Source of the DNA: Spartobacteria bacterium UBA6821
GTDB taxonomy: Bacteria; Verrucomicrobiota; Verrucomicrobiia; Chthoniobacterales; UBA6821
Length of the DNA: 10,983 nt
Assembly (NCBI GenBank): GCA_002452515.1
Contig: DKEN01000001.1
Coordinates: forward strand, 22,706 to 33,688
Direction: 5' to 3'
Position 1 is the first letter of the stretch. Each line of letters opens with the position of its first letter. Shown in pieces: positions 721 through 5,858 of the stretch. The translations under genes and the position numbers were made by a program. Under the pieces are notes generated by a model. That model ran no database searches, had not been told where the DNA came from, and saw only the letters and a list, made by a program, of their open reading frames with translations.

Positions 721-1485
721 ATGGCCGAGGCCAACATTTACGAATCGCCGAAGCTCCTCGGTGAGTATTTGCTCCTGCACTTCGGAGGGGCGACGGATCT
801 GTGTCACGAGTCACTCCCGGTCGATCCCTCGATAACAGCTATGCCGTTTCCGGTGCGCTGTGTCCGGGAGTTGCTCGATACAGCATTGCTCCCTGAGAAT
901 GCCACTGCCTTGGAAGTTGGCTGTGCTGTCGGAGGATCGGCGTTTGAACTCGCACGGCATTGCAGCAAGGTTGATGCCAGCGACTATTCCTCCTCCTTCA
1001 TCGCTGCAGCCAAGACCCTCTTGCTTGAAGGGGAAATTGCCGCACCGCGCGCCGTGGAAGGAGCGATCACGACTTCTTTTACAGCTCATGTTCCAAGTGA
1101 GATCGAGAAAAGCTGCATCACTTTTTCGGTGGCTGACGCCACAAAGCTCCCGCCAGATCTCGGCCCATACGATGTCGTTCTTGCTGCCAATCTGCTCTGC
1201 CGCCTCCCCGATCCAGAAGCCTTCCTTTCCCGGGCTTCCGAACTCGTCAAACCGGGCGGCCAACTTCTGCTCACCACCCCCTTCACCTGGCTGGAGGAAT
1301 ATACGCCCCGCGACCGTTGGATTGGTGGCATTGATCCGAATAACCGTAGTGAAAAGGAACTCCTGCGCCATCTTTCCCGTGACTTCCGATTGCATCGTCG
1401 GCGCGATCTGCCATTCCTGATTCGGGAACATGAACGAAAATATCAACTCGGCATCGCGCTTGGGACCTGCTGGATCAGAAACTGA
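721..1485 (+). CDS. Stand-alone OvoA C-terminal-type methyltransferase (putative 4-mercaptohistidine N1-methyltransferase)
   Basis: This 254-residue protein matches the domain that in bifunctional OvoA is fused behind the 5-histidylcysteine sulfoxide synthase. There it transfers a methyl group from SAM to the imidazole N of 4-mercaptohistidine, the last step to ovothiol A. Visible features are an N-terminal YESPKLLGEYLLLHFG segment (residues 7-22), SAM motif I LEVGCAVGGS (64-73), an acidic residue after the second strand near D85/D88, AANLLCRLPDP (145-155), LVKPGG (165-170), TPFTWLEEYTPRDRWIGG (176-193) and a C-terminal PFLIREHERKYQ (221-232). The last three blocks are typical of this family and not of generic methyltransferases. 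No sulfoxide-synthase gene lies in the window, so the partner must be elsewhere or the substrate differs. The ATG at 721 has no clear Shine-Dalgarno. The 3' end overlaps the next methyltransferase. Family assignment is firm; the substrate is inferred. Confidence 0.85.
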   Translation: MAEANIYESPKLLGEYLLLHFGGATDLCHESLPVDPSITAMPFPVRCVRELLDTALLPENATALEVGCAVGGSAFELARHCSKVDASDYSSSFIAAAKTLLLEGEIAAPRAVEGAITTSFTAHVPSEIEKSCITFSVADATKLPPDLGPYDVVLAANLLCRLPDPEAFLSRASELVKPGGQLLLTTPFTWLEEYTPRDRWIGGIDPNNRSEKELLRHLSRDFRLHRRRDLPFLIREHERKYQLGIALGTCWIRN

Positions 1486-2095
1486 TGAGGCAGAGGCGGT
1501 GAATTGGGAGTCCCGCTACCGACTTGGCGATACTCCTTGGGAGAAGGGATGTTCCTCTCCTCCCCTTATTGACTTTCTCGCACGCCATCCGATCCAGGGG
1601 GAGATCCTGGTTCCCGGATGTGGAATAGGCCACGAAGTACGCACTCTTGCAGCACAGGACGTTCATCAAACCACGGTGATCGGACTCGATCTCGCCGAAA
1701 CAGCCATCACTCTGGCTCAAGGCATTCCCCTCGTAGGCCAGGAAACGTATGTGCAGGGTGATCTCTTCGCCTTCCCATCCTCCTGGAACGGACGCTTCAA
1801 CTGGGTGGTGGAGCACACCTGTTTCTGTGCCATCGATCCTACCCTGAGAGCCGACTATGTACGGGCCATTGCTCAGGTCTTGAAACCTGGCGGCCAGTAT
1901 TTCGCCATCTTCTTCATGACTCCCGATTCCGAGCAAGGGCCTCCCTTTGGAACGACCAAGGAAGAAATCGCCCAACTCTTTGAGCCAAGCTTTGAGCTCT
2001 TGGAGGAGTGGATTCCAACTCGCACTTTCGAAGGCCGTGAGGGGCGGGAACTCTGCCAACTCCGCCGTAAAGCGGAGGAGGCTATTAGGCTGTAG
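1430..2095 (+). CDS. TPMT-family class I SAM-dependent methyltransferase
   Basis: This 221-residue protein carries the thiopurine S-methyltransferase family pattern: WESRYRLGDTPWEKG (residues 26-40), motif I ILVPGCGIGHEV (59-70), acidic D87 at the end of strand 2, GDLFAFP (110-116), the family-specific EHTCFCAIDP (128-137) and VLKPGGQYFAIFF (150-162). Bacterial members methylate thiols, halides or metalloid ions; the substrate here cannot be read from sequence. The ATG at 1430 gives a 56-bp overlap with the preceding methyltransferase. A GTG at 1499, just after that gene's stop, would still leave the whole domain intact, so the start is uncertain. The last residues (EAIRL) and the TAG stop lie inside the left arm of the inverted repeat that bounds the downstream cassette, so the C-terminus appears to have been rewritten by that element. 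Its pairing with an ovothiol-type methyltransferase suggests thiol chemistry, but this is inference. Confidence 0.85.
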   Translation: MNENINSASRLGPAGSETDEAEAVNWESRYRLGDTPWEKGCSSPPLIDFLARHPIQGEILVPGCGIGHEVRTLAAQDVHQTTVIGLDLAETAITLAQGIPLVGQETYVQGDLFAFPSSWNGRFNWVVEHTCFCAIDPTLRADYVRAIAQVLKPGGQYFAIFFMTPDSEQGPPFGTTKEEIAQLFEPSFELLEEWIPTRTFEGREGRELCQLRRKAEEAIRL

Positions 2096-2110
2096 TCTGT
2101 TAGACTGTTA
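2078..2110 (+). repeat. Left inverted-repeat arm of the cassette
   Basis: This arm pairs with 2476-2508, with mismatches only at arm positions 7, 19 and 30; one further matched base (2111/2475) extends it. Within the arm, TAG triplets recur at 2086, 2093, 2101 and 2109 (spacing 7, 8, 8), built from units of the form TAGnCTGT. The arm also holds a small perfect hairpin, AGTCT-GTT-AGACT, at 2094-2106. It encodes the last five residues and the stop codon of the methyltransferase ending at 2095. Confidence 0.85.
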
Positions 2111-2116
2111 GGGGGA
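2111..2116 (+). promoter_or_regulatory. Strong Shine-Dalgarno for the four-helix-bundle gene
   Basis: GGGGGA at 2111-2116 lies about 5 bases before the ATG at 2122 and decides that start. It stands out because the neighbouring genes starting at 721, 2540, 8687 (minus) and 9792 (minus) have no comparable purine-rich site. This fits the cassette carrying its own translation signal. Confidence 0.6.
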
Positions 2117-2121
2117 GAATC

Positions 2122-2478
2122 ATGCGCGACCACAGAAAACTCCGGGCATTCGTGCTGGCTGATGAACTCGTCATCCAGATCTATCAACTGACGCAAAATT
2201 TCCCGAAGGATGAGATTTACGGCCTCACATCCCAGATGCGGAAGGCAGCCGTTTCTGTGCCCTCGAACATTGTGGAAGGGTGTGCACGAGAAGGCGAGGT
2301 GGAGTATCTCCGATTCCTTGAAATCGCATTCGGTTCGTTACGAGAGCTTCACTATCAGCTTAGTCTGGCAAAGAGGATGGGATATTGCGAATACGCCCTG
2401 TTTCTCACTGCTGACGAAAAATGTGAGGAAACAGGAAAGGTGCTGGCTGCCCTGATTCGATCCATCCGCCAAGGCTAA
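2122..2478 (+). CDS. Four-helix-bundle protein, 23S rRNA IVS (S23) family
   Basis: This 118-residue protein has the full family signature: HRKLRAFVLADELV at the start, NFPKDEIYGL (residues 26-35), SQMRKAAVSVPSNIVEG (37-53) and RFLEIAFGSLRELHYQL (64-80), with predicted long amphipathic helices throughout. Proteins of this family are encoded inside intervening sequences of some bacterial 23S rRNA genes. They are also related to Avd, the accessory protein of diversity-generating retroelements, which forms a basic barrel-shaped pentamer that binds nucleic acid. No reverse transcriptase, variable repeat or rRNA gene is visible here, so this copy is solitary. It is placed exactly between the two arms of an inverted repeat, and its TAA stop (2476-2478) is the first triplet of the right arm. 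Biochemical function is unknown. Confidence 0.9.
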   Translation: MRDHRKLRAFVLADELVIQIYQLTQNFPKDEIYGLTSQMRKAAVSVPSNIVEGCAREGEVEYLRFLEIAFGSLRELHYQLSLAKRMGYCEYALFLTADEKCEETGKVLAALIRSIRQG

Positions 2479-2508
2479 TAGTCTAACAGTCTACAGCCTA
2501 AAAGCCTC
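2476..2508 (-). repeat. Right inverted-repeat arm of the cassette
   Basis: The reverse complement of 2478-2110 geometry is not needed to see it: reading this arm on the minus strand reproduces the left arm at 30 of 33 positions. It has the same TAG spacing of 7, 8 and 8 bases (the last TAG using the extra base at 2475). The internal AGTCT/AGACT hairpin of the left arm is lost here by a T-to-A change, leaving a direct repeat of TAGACT. The arm begins with the TAA stop of the enclosed gene. Confidence 0.85.
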
Positions 2509-2539: not shown

Positions 2540-4669
2540 ATGAGCGACTGCTGCCACCATCACCCGAAAAAGGCGTCACCGCCGCCGAAATCGAAGGGTT
2601 CACTTTACACCTGTCCGATGCATCCTGAGATTCTGCGGGAAGGGCCGGGAGATTGTCCGAAATGCGGCATGGCTCTTGAGCCGCTGATTCCAACAGGTAC
2701 CGAGGATCAGGAGTCCAAACTCTTGGGCCAAAAATTCTGGCTCTCCGTGATTCTTGGTGTGCCGGTCCTCCTGCTCGCCATGGCCCCCATGCTAGGGATC
2801 ACTCTCCTCTCTCCATTCTGGTCCGACTGGCTCGAATGCCTGCTCTCGCTTCCGGTGCTCTTCTGGTGCGGAGCGCCTATCTGGATCAAAGGCTTCCGTT
2901 CCTTTGCCGATCGGAATCTCAACATGTTTTCCCTGATCACCCTGGGAACGGCTGCCGCGTTTCTGGACAGCATGGTCGTCTTGATCCAAAACGGAGGTGG
3001 CAATCAGACCATGCATTCCCAAGGTCTCTATTTTGAGGCCGCCACGGCCATCATGGTGCTCGTGTTGTTGGGGCAATGGCTGGAAGCCCGTGGGCGGGCG
3101 CGCACGGGATCGGCCCTGCGCGAATTGCTCGATCTTACTCCTGCCACGGCCCGACTGGTGCAGGAAGGTAAAGACGACCGGGAGATTCCAGTCTCTGAAC
3201 TTCATCCTGGAAACCACGTTCGCATCCTTCCCGGTGATAAAATTCCCGCCGACGGAACGATCGTCGAGGGCTGGAGCTCCGTGGACGAATCGATGCTCAC
3301 CGGGGAATCCCTCCCTGCGGAGAAAACTGCTGGATCGTCCCTATCCGCCGGAACACTCAACAGGGAGGGGAGTTTCATCATGCAGCTCACCCGGGTGGGG
3401 TCCGAAACGGCCCTTGCCCAGATCATCCATCTTGTCGCTCAGGCACAACGCAGCCAGGCTCCGATTCAGCAACTCGCCGACCGGGTCGCGGCGGTTTTTG
3501 TCCCGATTGTACTCGGCATCAGTGCGCTGACCTTCGCTGGCTGGATGCTGTTTGCCCACAGTTGGACTCATGCGCTGGGCTCCTCCGTCTCGGTGCTCAT
3601 GATCGCCTGCCCATGCGCCCTGGGACTCGCCACACCAATGGCTCTCGCCGTTGGAATCGGACGTGCGGCGCGTCACGGCATTCTGATTCGCTCCGCCGTA
3701 GCCTTGCAAAATCTCGCCTCCACGACACTGCTGGCTCTCGATAAAACGGGAACGCTCACCGAAGGTACCCCCCGCATCCTCTCCCTACACCCTCTGGGAG
3801 ATATCACTGAGGAACACCTCCTGACGCTGGCCGCTGCCGCAGAGATCGGGAGCGAGCATCCTCTTGCCCAAGCGGTGATCCAGTGTGCCAAAAGCCGCAA
3901 TCTAATCCTGCCAAAAGCCACCGACTTCACCGCTCATCCCGGCGGGGGTATTTCCGCAACCGTGGAGGGGGTTTCACTGCTCGTCGGCAGCATCCGGTTT
4001 CTTCGGGAACAAGGCGTCCCTGTTCAGCCTTTGGAACAGCTTGTCGTTTCTGATGGAGCCGGGTTGGTTGCGGTTGCCAAGAACGGTGTGTCAGCAGGTG
4101 CCTTCTTTGTGAGCGATACGATCCGGCCCTCCGCTAAGAATCTCCTTCGTGATTTCAAAGCCCTTGGCGTGCAGATCGCGATGCTCACCGGCGATCGCGA
4201 AAGCGTGGCGCGCAGCATAGCGGAAGAACTCGGCATCACACTCTGGAAAGCCGAACTCACCCCGGCACAAAAAGGGGAGCAGTTGGCGCAGTGGAAGAAA
4301 GAAGGTTACCAAACCGCGATGGCAGGAGATGGGATCAACGATGCCCCGGCTTTGGCTATGGCGGATGCCTCCATCGCGATGGGAGCAGGCTCCGATATCG
4401 CCAAGGAAACGGCGGGGATCATTTTGCTCAAGCCTTCGCTAGAGGGAATCGCCGAATCCCTTCTGCTAAGCCGTGCAGTCCTCCGCACGATCCGTCAAAA
4501 TCTCTTCTTCGCCTTCGCTTATAATATCATTGGCATCCCTATCGCAGCGGGACTTCTCTACCCTTGCTTCGGCATCCTGCTCAGCCCCATGCTGGCAGCG
4601 GCAGCGATGAGCCTCAGTTCGGTCTCTGTCATCGCCAATTCCCTACGGCTCAGGAAGATGCGGATTTAA
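2540..4669 (+). CDS. copA: Copper-exporting P1B-type ATPase with N-terminal HMBD metal-binding domain
   Basis: This 709-residue ATPase pumps Cu+ (possibly Ag+) out of the cytoplasm at the expense of ATP. In order it shows a Cys/His-rich start CCHHH (4-8), a heavy-metal-binding domain YTCPMHPE with CPKCGM (Cys25, His28, Cys39, Cys42), actuator TGES (254-257), the CPC metal site in helix 6 (Cys357-Pro358-Cys359), the phosphorylation site DKTGT with Asp401, the nucleotide-domain His440-Pro441, the hinge GDGIND (596-601), and the Cu+-group residues Tyr661-Asn662 and MSLSS (690-694) in the last two membrane helices. There is no classical ferredoxin-like CxxC HMA domain; the HMBD replaces it. Length is normal for this architecture. 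No copper regulator or chaperone gene is adjacent. The ATG at 2540 has no clear Shine-Dalgarno and follows a C-rich stretch 31 bp after the inverted-repeat arm. Confidence 0.95.
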   Translation: MSDCCHHHPKKASPPPKSKGSLYTCPMHPEILREGPGDCPKCGMALEPLIPTGTEDQESKLLGQKFWLSVILGVPVLLLAMAPMLGITLLSPFWSDWLECLLSLPVLFWCGAPIWIKGFRSFADRNLNMFSLITLGTAAAFLDSMVVLIQNGGGNQTMHSQGLYFEAATAIMVLVLLGQWLEARGRARTGSALRELLDLTPATARLVQEGKDDREIPVSELHPGNHVRILPGDKIPADGTIVEGWSSVDESMLTGESLPAEKTAGSSLSAGTLNREGSFIMQLTRVGSETALAQIIHLVAQAQRSQAPIQQLADRVAAVFVPIVLGISALTFAGWMLFAHSWTHALGSSVSVLMIACPCALGLATPMALAVGIGRAARHGILIRSAVALQNLASTTLLALDKTGTLTEGTPRILSLHPLGDITEEHLLTLAAAAEIGSEHPLAQAVIQCAKSRNLILPKATDFTAHPGGGISATVEGVSLLVGSIRFLREQGVPVQPLEQLVVSDGAGLVAVAKNGVSAGAFFVSDTIRPSAKNLLRDFKALGVQIAMLTGDRESVARSIAEELGITLWKAELTPAQKGEQLAQWKKEGYQTAMAGDGINDAPALAMADASIAMGAGSDIAKETAGIILLKPSLEGIAESLLLSRAVLRTIRQNLFFAFAYNIIGIPIAAGLLYPCFGILLSPMLAAAAMSLSSVSVIANSLRLRKMRI

Positions 4670-4766
4670 TGCAATAACCCGCCAGGCGGAAATTCCAGGC
4701 AATCCACTGCCCACATCACAAATACCTTTACCCGATAGTAAAAGAAGCAGAGAAGTGGCCATAGTT

Positions 4767-5858
4767 ATGATACCCTCTCCGCGCGTTCTCTTCACCCTGC
4801 TGGCCTCCGGTCTTATTTTCTCTTCCTCGGCCCTCGCCGATACTTATTACGACACCAGCGGCGTTACCAACAACAGTGGCGTGCCGATTGATATCACTTA
4901 CTGGCAGGGATTGCGGAACTATGGCAACTCCACGAATCTTTTTTTTACCGGCACGGCCAGTAATAACACAGATGGCCTAGTTTATATCGGCCCCATCACG
5001 GGTGTTGGCGGTACGGCATATATTATCAATGCACCGGGAGCTGCGACGACAAGCTTGTACGGCCCGGATAATCTCACCAATGGCGATGTCGCCGTTGTCG
5101 GCGTTTATAAGACAGGCACTAACGCAACCAACATCGTCCATGGCACGATTGGCCAGGGATCGCTTTCCGACCTCTCAACGGGAGGTGGAATCTGGACAAC
5201 AGTTGATTATACAAATGCAACCCACACCTATGTGCACAGCATGATGGGTGGTTATGCCGTCGGCAATGCGGATACAAACCTGTTGGAGGATCCCACCAAC
5301 AACGAGCACGCCTTTATCTACAATGTCGCCACGCCGGGCTTCGAAGATGTCTCCTTCAGATTTGCCACGAACATCATCTCCACGACGCTCTATGGAATCT
5401 GGTACAACGGCGGAACGAGTTACACGCTGGCGGGCGGTTACGCGACCTTGCTGGGTGGCCCCAATGCCTTCCTGGTGAATTGGGACTCTTCCGGTAGCGG
5501 AACCAATGCCTTCAGCGATTGGGCTTCGTACACCAATGTGACCCATTTCGAGGGGATCAGCAGTGTGACTCCGGGTGTCTACACTCTCAGCGGCGACGGC
5601 CCCTCTTCTCTGCTGACCGTATCTACCAACAACGACGGGACCTTTGATTCAGGAACCCTGCAGGTTTTGACCGGGCCTGGTGGCACCAATATCAGTGCGA
5701 ATTCTGTCTACGGCACCAATGTGGTGGGGATCACAACTCCCGGATCGGCCTTTCAGGCAACCGTGTCACCCATTCCGGAACCCTCTGCTGTTGCCCTGCT
5801 GACTCTCAGCCTAGGTAGCTTGGTTTTACTGCGCCTTCGCTCGCGGGTTCACGGCTAA
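4767..5858 (+). CDS. Secreted PEP-CTERM sorting-domain protein
   Basis: The N-terminus has a signal peptide: Arg in a short basic region, a hydrophobic core LLASGLIFSSS and an ALA cleavage site before DTYYD. The C-terminus has the tripartite PEP-CTERM signal: PIPEPS, a hydrophobic helix of about 16 residues and an Arg-rich tail (RLRSRVHG). Proteins with this signal are exported and processed by an exosortase, which is not encoded in this window. The body of about 310 residues is rich in Asn, Thr, Gly and Ser and lacks visible Cys, consistent with an extracellular beta-rich fold. Repeating motifs around aromatic-Gly-Gly-Thr and NAFLVNW suggest beta-strand repeats, but I do not recognise a named domain. 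I prefer the ATG at 4767. An in-frame GTG at 4755, with AAGAAG seven bases before it, is an equally workable start that adds four residues. Function is unknown. Confidence 0.85.
   Translation: MIPSPRVLFTLLASGLIFSSSALADTYYDTSGVTNNSGVPIDITYWQGLRNYGNSTNLFFTGTASNNTDGLVYIGPITGVGGTAYIINAPGAATTSLYGPDNLTNGDVAVVGVYKTGTNATNIVHGTIGQGSLSDLSTGGGIWTTVDYTNATHTYVHSMMGGYAVGNADTNLLEDPTNNEHAFIYNVATPGFEDVSFRFATNIISTTLYGIWYNGGTSYTLAGGYATLLGGPNAFLVNWDSSGSGTNAFSDWASYTNVTHFEGISSVTPGVYTLSGDGPSSLLTVSTNNDGTFDSGTLQVLTGPGGTNISANSVYGTNVVGITTPGSAFQATVSPIPEPSAVALLTLSLGSLVLLRLRSRVHG

Follow-up and report, generated by a model that had tools for sequence, protein, structure and literature searches.

In 23S rRNA IVSs, an open reading frame (ORF) for a protein of the S23 family (PF05635) lies inside complementary ends that form a stem, and a protein of a related four-helix-bundle family, Avd of the diversity-generating retroelements (DGRs), works with a reverse transcriptase. 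The homology between Avd and PF05635 has been noted (PMC10053308), known S23 structures are described as pentamers of four-helix bundles (PMC4990558, PMC10053308), and the IVS of Coxiella measures 428 nt (PMC4990558). Insertion sequences and MITEs are delimited by terminal inverted repeats. STRRs, the subject of a 1990 paper by Mazel et al., include tandem, degenerate 7-nt units that are intergenic and genome-specific. Examples of such heptamers come from cyanobacteria, Xanthomonas (GGGAATC) and Beggiatoaceae (TAACTGA) (PMC4679880, PMC6344855, PMC4692102), with 186 GGGAATC patterns in X. campestris (Xcc) (PMC4692102). As far as their available text goes, these descriptions do not name S23 or any partner protein, and published surveys, to the same extent, call the heptamer repeats unexplained. 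REPs and REPINs are short extragenic repeats, found solo and as inverted doublets able to form hairpins, which are tied to a specific protein, RAYT (PMC3116915).

The window, i.e., the whole stretch of 10,983 nt that we analyzed, contains a unit of ~431 bp whose likeness to a 23S rRNA IVS, proposed in a preliminary description of this DNA, holds for the protein family and for the plan of an ORF inside a hairpin, but not for the location. The unit is similar in size to the Coxiella IVS. It is not in rRNA and, unlike in an IVS, its arms consist of short repeats arrayed in tandem, to which relatives are found dispersed. It shares terminal inverted repeats with insertion sequences and MITEs, and no transposase gene was found within it in the ORF list or with Pfam, the PF05635 gene being its sole gene. 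In contrast to the REPIN/RAYT system, the partner protein is S23, with no REP-associated tyrosine (HUH, Y1) transposase in the unit, the repeat is a tandem array of 7-9-mers instead of a REP palindrome, and the S23 gene itself lies between the arms. The arrays resemble STRR heptamers, those of the window being a mixed 7/8-mer that is dispersed in the genus. As for DGRs, the bAvd profile matches the S23 protein of the window at 1.6e-7 (32.2 bits, below its cut-off of 40) and NF033474 scores 35.5 (below its cut-off of 80), and no reverse transcriptase, template repeat or variable repeat was recognized adjoining the unit. These parts are known. Their link, that of S23 with heptamer arrays, was not found in the open-licence literature and is new within that scope, where an earlier description may still exist elsewhere.

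An S23 gene between mirrored arrays

The unit is located between two protein genes, with these features:

1430..2095, + strand: TPMT-type methyltransferase, the upstream host gene (PF05724, 5.1e-29), syntenic in the genus
2078..2111, + strand: left arm, a tandem 7/8-mer array, TTAGGCTG-TAGTCTG-TTAGACTG-TTAG
2110..2117, + strand: Shine-Dalgarno-like AGGGGGAG, immediately 3' of the array, read from the sequence
2122..2478, + strand: S23 / 23S_rRNA_IVP four-helix-bundle gene, 118 aa (PF05635, 7.5e-33)
2475..2508, - strand: right arm, the same array inverted, mirror of the left arm
2540..4669, + strand: copper-type P-type ATPase (copA), the downstream host gene (TIGR01511, 8.6e-167), syntenic in the genus

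The S23 protein also matches TIGR02436, 'four helix bundle protein' (3.4e-33), and XCC0516 of PDB entry 2gsc (1.9e-23). The arms, of 34 nt each and 363 nt apart, pair at 31 of 34 positions (91% complementary) and are the longest inverted repeat listed in the window. Each consists of a degenerate 7/8-mer, TTAGRCTG, repeated in a short array, and the two arrays mirror each other, with the G-rich strand of the left arm directed towards the gene. Both arms are built into coding sequences: the 3' end of the methyltransferase ORF falls within the left one, from which it takes its stop codon (TAG, 2093-2095), and the S23 gene takes its own (TAA, 2476-2478) from the right one. The ATG of S23 is 10 nt past the end of the left arm, with AGGGGGAG in between. 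The predicted RNA fold of a 446-nt unit beats 100 of 100 shuffles (z -4.4). No Rfam family reached its gathering score in the window, hence there is no rRNA there. The complete S23 gene between inverted arms, placed outside rRNA and flanked by methyltransferase and copper ATPase genes, is therefore as the preliminary description had it. Elsewhere in the window, a 367-aa ORF (4755-5855) has no Pfam match and, by eye, a C-terminus resembling a PEP-CTERM sorting signal.

Arrays, repeat units and S23 clades in other genomes

S23 genes (PF05635, E <= 0.001) are present in 220 of the 288 genomes from the window's phylum and in none of 14 named control genomes. Two further candidates in the window's own genome (L002 and L003, E 0.005 and 0.09) were too weak to be taken as S23 genes. 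In an initial set of 31 loci, the window and 30 others, many had mirrored flanks with a visible 7-nt period and unlike sequences. The tandem make-up of the arms and the occurrence of the same plan at many S23 genes both go beyond the preliminary description. For a cross-phylum analysis we took the best 80 of 589 confirmed S23 loci of named genomes, selected by protein similarity and not by flanks; 27 viral S23 loci and 17 of 24 plasmid records lie outside the flank analysis. Arrays were called at a period-7 score of at least 10 within 200 nt of the gene, and control windows were more than 1200 nt away. Period-7 arrays were found in 75 of 157 S23 flanks versus 72 of 2336 distant windows, and in 12 of 114 distant intergenic windows. 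Period 8 follows with 19/157 versus 28/2336, and periods 4-6 and 9-12 show no rise in S23 flanks. With the remaining ORFs of each locus as controls, S23 genes have period 7 on both sides in 21/73 versus 4/267 cases, and on at least one side in 50/73 versus 41/267. Mirrored flanks (score of at least 14) accompany 33/73 S23 genes versus 7/267 control ORFs, the values for direct flank similarity at the same threshold being 8/73 and 6/267. Inverted similarity exceeds direct similarity by more than 3 in 37 of 77 loci, the opposite being true in 8, and the array strand read from the outside in is richer in G than in C for 54 of the 66 non-tied arrays (69 arrays).

Neither an array nor mirrored flanks were seen at 12 of 77 S23 loci. 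No rRNA was found at any of these 12, which speaks against their being rRNA IVSs. Both neighbors are co-oriented with S23 in 41 of 63 loci and antisense in 4, mixed arrangements accounting for 11 and 7. Hence, at most loci S23 is read together with the operon of its host. This is compatible with an RNA stage or with the absence of a promoter of its own and proves neither.

Named organisms illustrate the range of these loci. By eye, GGGAATC/GGGATTC units adjoin S23 at six Xanthomonadales loci, in Xanthomonas arboricola, X. dyei, Dyella, Luteimonas, Rhodanobacter and Dokdonella (at one side only in the last, L066), and GGGAATC is the very heptamer described in Xcc (PMC4692102, in its available text). 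The S23 gene of X. arboricola is placed between a biotin-lipoyl (accB-like) gene and accC. In Nostoc edaphicum, S23 has AGTAGGG arms and lies between two ribonucleotide reductase (nrd) genes, antisense to both. On a plasmid of Pseudanabaena galeata (L331), the gene is found between cas6 and cas4, with long direct heptamer arrays on both sides. No array was seen by eye at the S23 gene of Calothrix sp. PCC 7716 (L328). At another locus (L042, 490-2612), an S23 gene 63% identical to that of the window lies amid six tRNA matches on the opposite strand.

Within the genus of the window, proteins of one clade (clade A, 64-85% identical to the window's S23) have TTAGACTG/GAAGGCTG arms at several different sites, the arm unit being GTCGARR in clade B and GTTAAA in clade C. 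Among S23 pairs of the same genome, arm similarity is 15-20.5 for those at least 60% identical (one clade, n=3) versus 8-11.5 for those below 60% (different clades, n=7). Same-site arm similarities of 42-55 come from the homologous neighbor genes and were not counted. Across phyla (98 loci and 3753 pairs, with phyla assigned by hand and a shared unit defined by a score of at least 12), the unit is shared by 8 of 17 pairs at 60% protein identity or more, 7 of 58 at 55-60%, 12 of 360 at 50-55% and 65 of 3318 below 50%. The reverse-complement control gave 0/17 and 0/58 for the two upper classes, and none of 2000 within-phylum permutations matched the mean of the pairs at 55% or more. The effect is seen only in pairs above ~55%: ranked over all cross-phylum pairs, protein identity and arm similarity correlate at only 0.03, and another Mantel-type correlation, of 0.06, was reached by 23 of 500 permutations. 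For example, Thiohalocapsa has AGTGG units in common with four genomes from the phylum of the window, and a 9-nt GGCACAAAG-type unit of loci in KSB1, Desulfobacteraceae and the window's phylum is likewise shared. At the level of sequence comparison, S23 clade and repeat unit are thus shown to be linked. Since a gene and its arms traveling as one unit would give the same pattern as recognition of the arms by the protein, what this shows is linkage and not binding.

The prospect of further arm copies in the genome was borne out. A 27-nt piece of the left arm, searched with up to 3 mismatches, has 8 matches in the 2.35-Mb draft genome of the window, two of which are the arms themselves, versus 0 for the reversed-pattern control. 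Of the six beyond the locus, one (L005, 1449-1527, contig C138 of G000) is an exact 27-mer with an inverted partner ~33 nt off, giving an ~80-nt hairpin with no S23 gene, and a second (L007) has its inverted partner ~114 nt distant; a good partner is absent at the other four (L008-L011). Among 16 genomes of the genus, clade-A arrays number 1, 17, 8, 6, 7, 8, 4, 5 and 6 in the nine with a clade-A S23 gene versus 1, 0, 1, 1, 0, 0 and 2 in the seven others (p=0.001), these being separate arrays counted by hand from a list of pattern matches in which the reversed control pattern has 13 matches in G301. Leaving out two genomes in which the clade-A gene is just partial changes the p value to 0.003, and moving them instead gives 0.008. 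Counts of clade-B arrays were set aside, as the reversed-pattern controls are high as well.

Most dispersed arrays are solo: among 46, a convergent partner within 500 nt was found for 9 and a divergent one for 1, in a set that leaves out three contig-end places (L277, L298, L323), one place adjoining S23 (L292) and repeats of one array, and that includes an array ~400 nt from an S23 gene (L301). In random 20-kb samples, we counted 29 arrays in 1.11 Mb from 20 S23-bearing genomes versus 9 in 1.13 Mb from 20 S23-less ones. Arrays were present in 8 of 20 versus 4 of 20 of these genomes (p=0.06), and one S23-less genome (G005) has 6. This sampling across genomes is no more than suggestive of a tie between arrays and S23 presence. 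In one place (L312, contig C17 of G299), a clade-B array pair encloses an array of another unit, TCCTATC, i.e., the arrays are nested.

Presence and absence of S23 units at orthologous junctions

The methyltransferase and copA genes are adjacent in all 15 other genomes of the genus, so that the junction can be compared in 16 genomes. S23 is present in 4 (G000, which is that of the window, G298, G299 and G291). In 5 (G302, G297, G300, G292 and G290), the junction is 5-40 nt long with no recognizable arms, G290 being judged by coordinates only and the 28-40 nt tails being long enough to hide scraps. In G302, the nearest relative of G000 by copA, the last aligned methyltransferase residue is 5 nt from the copA start. 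The remaining 7 have remnants or other inserts: one arm is left in G295 and G289, the arms of G294 enclose ~100 nt of other sequence, and G301, G288, G293 and G296 have different inserts, 181-683 nt long, in which scraps of arrays are seen. Hence, gain, loss and decay all occur at this junction, in numbers that the data do not fix, and old presence followed by repeated loss explains part of the pattern, G296 having what reads as the 3' tail of S23. No target-site duplication could be made out between the compared junctions, which are diverged.

The preliminary description had regarded the unit as a possible minimal non-autonomous mobile element, a guess supported by this presence and absence among 16 genomes, including the short junctions of the five, and backed by S23 copies with the same arms elsewhere and by solo or paired arms with no gene. 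It had also considered, as a result that would count against this guess, that the arms might be kept in the spacer of strains that lack the gene; what we find of this are only single-arm remnants or arms around other inserts, e.g., in G295, G289 and G294, and no recognizable arms in the five genomes with a junction of 5-40 nt.

Some junctions have features of their own. The insert of G296 (L195, 826-1510) is 683 nt long, with what looks by eye like the C-terminus of a multicopper oxidase, then the S23-like 3' tail and a right-arm scrap. G288, G301 and G293 (L198, L199 and L200) have a small geneless insert in which GCACAAAAA-like repeats face CTTTTGTGCATCTTGTGGC, making an array hairpin with 9-10-nt units; 9-nt units of a similar kind are also found on either side of an S23 clade in L028, L063 and L079. 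In G291 (L193, ~1384-1541), two left arrays in direct order, with ~100 nt between them, precede S23, as if the S23 unit had entered a pre-existing array.

Comparisons of sequence identity point to movement independent of the neighbors. Between G299 and G291, the S23 genes are 99.4% identical as DNA, compared with 70.4% in the methyltransferase and 89.1% in copA. In 100-nt steps, the identity is 99-100% within S23, 81-82% just to the right and 61-64% to the left, and the third-position differences are 0.008 in S23 versus 0.213 in copA. Between G000 and G298, these are 0.43 in S23 versus 0.60 in copA. Judged from these sequences, the S23 unit behaves like a mobile cassette that moves on its own. 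Changes are far fewer at codon positions 1 and 2 than at position 3, hence the S23 protein is under purifying selection. In another pair (L191 and L193, of G298 and G291), the methyltransferase is 83.6% identical versus 71.0% for copA, which indicates recombination to the left of the S23 unit.

A second junction, between a PAPS-reductase gene (cysH-like) and cysD, has one S23 type, whose arms are AATAGGG-like, in three genomes (G297, G291 and G299), and another, whose arms are GTTAAA, in four (G289, G288, G294 and G301). The two types are 25-28% identical. The gap is only 29-69 nt in G295, G298, G290, G296, G000, G300 and G292; these seven and the S23 genes of G291 and G299 were judged by coordinates only. 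The junction had no match in G302 and G293.

Explanations of the S23-array association

The architecture, its generality, the linkage of clade and unit and the presence or absence at orthologous junctions are the established facts, and the most likely account of the system, by analogy, is that protein and repeat form a pair comparable to RAYT and REPINs, without a transposase. More precisely, the ~431-bp succession of an array, the S23 gene and an inverted array is probably one heritable mobile cassette with a unit proper to its clade. The dispersed solo arrays and hairpins would stand to it as REPs and REPINs stand to RAYT, as relatives or relics. Several observations go against this account: the 12 of 77 loci with neither array nor mirrored flanks, the direct arrays at some genes, as on both sides of S23 in Pseudanabaena, the heptamer arrays of control intergenic windows (12/114), the predominance of solo arrays among the dispersed ones, the p=0.06 of the sampling across genomes with its array-bearing S23-less genome G005, and the correlation of only 0.03 over all cross-phylum pairs. 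The interpretation given in the preliminary description is partly supported overall.

In such a cassette, the S23 protein would bind the array as RNA or single-stranded DNA, perhaps with one protomer per unit, as a pentamer covering 5 x 7 nt would span ~35 nt, about one arm. Through its action, sequences with hairpin arms would be copied or inserted into gene junctions, and it may achieve this by marking or carrying array-bearing RNA or single-stranded DNA for copying by host enzymes. Since the unit has no other gene and PF05635 is not known as a family of nucleases or transposases, the host would have to provide the chemistry, by replication, repair or a reverse transcriptase in trans.

It is unlikely that the unit is instead an RNA element of the IVS type, with arms that are only an RNA stem in the operon transcript, where RNase III excises or insulates the intrusive ORF, and with incidental heptamers. 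Such an element would account for the stable predicted stem and for the excess of co-oriented over antisense S23 genes (41 versus 4 in 63 loci), and the IVSs of 23S rRNA have the same protein family and plan (PMC4990558). However, the 7-nt periodicity, the clade-specific units and the solo arrays distant from S23 would be left unexplained, and the S23 gene of Nostoc edaphicum is antisense to both nrd neighbors.

We consider it improbable that S23 is a host regulator that binds heptamer arrays in mRNA or DNA, the dispersed arrays being its regulon, the arms its autoregulatory sites, and presence or absence a matter of gene gain and loss. A regulon does not need mirrored arms, and a regulator would hardly be expected as very different S23 types with different arms at the same junction in one genus, nor as near-identical S23 genes between otherwise diverged junctions, even if the purifying selection on the protein, the location of arrays between operon genes and the greater frequency of clade-A arrays where clade-A S23 is present are in line with it. 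Finally, mere coincidence, with slippage making heptamer arrays in many spacers where S23 genes happen to sit, is already disfavored and very hard to credit: heptamer arrays are frequent in bacterial spacers (PMC6344855) and 12 of 114 distant intergenic windows score, but it is opposed by the enrichment over both intergenic and gene-flank controls, the mirrored orientation, the constant polarity and the linkage of unit and clade.

Returning to the mobile cassette with its protein-repeat pair, a wider and more tentative reading, possible although we would not yet favor it, is that a large part of the intergenic heptamer repeats (STRRs) of Bacteria is due to S23 proteins. As a ring of protomers, the protein of each clade would read a 7-9-nt unit of its own, and would spread arrays, array hairpins and S23 cassettes without a transposase of its own, perhaps via cDNA or by copying at replication forks, in the way that its relative Avd acts together with a reverse transcriptase. 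If this is true, the IVSs of rRNA would be cassettes that came to lie at sites where RNase III keeps them from doing harm. The pairing of protein and repeat makes of the S23 family and the heptamer repeats one testable system, a protein plus its cognate repeat, and the S23 unit offers a type of mobile cassette that has no transposase gene.
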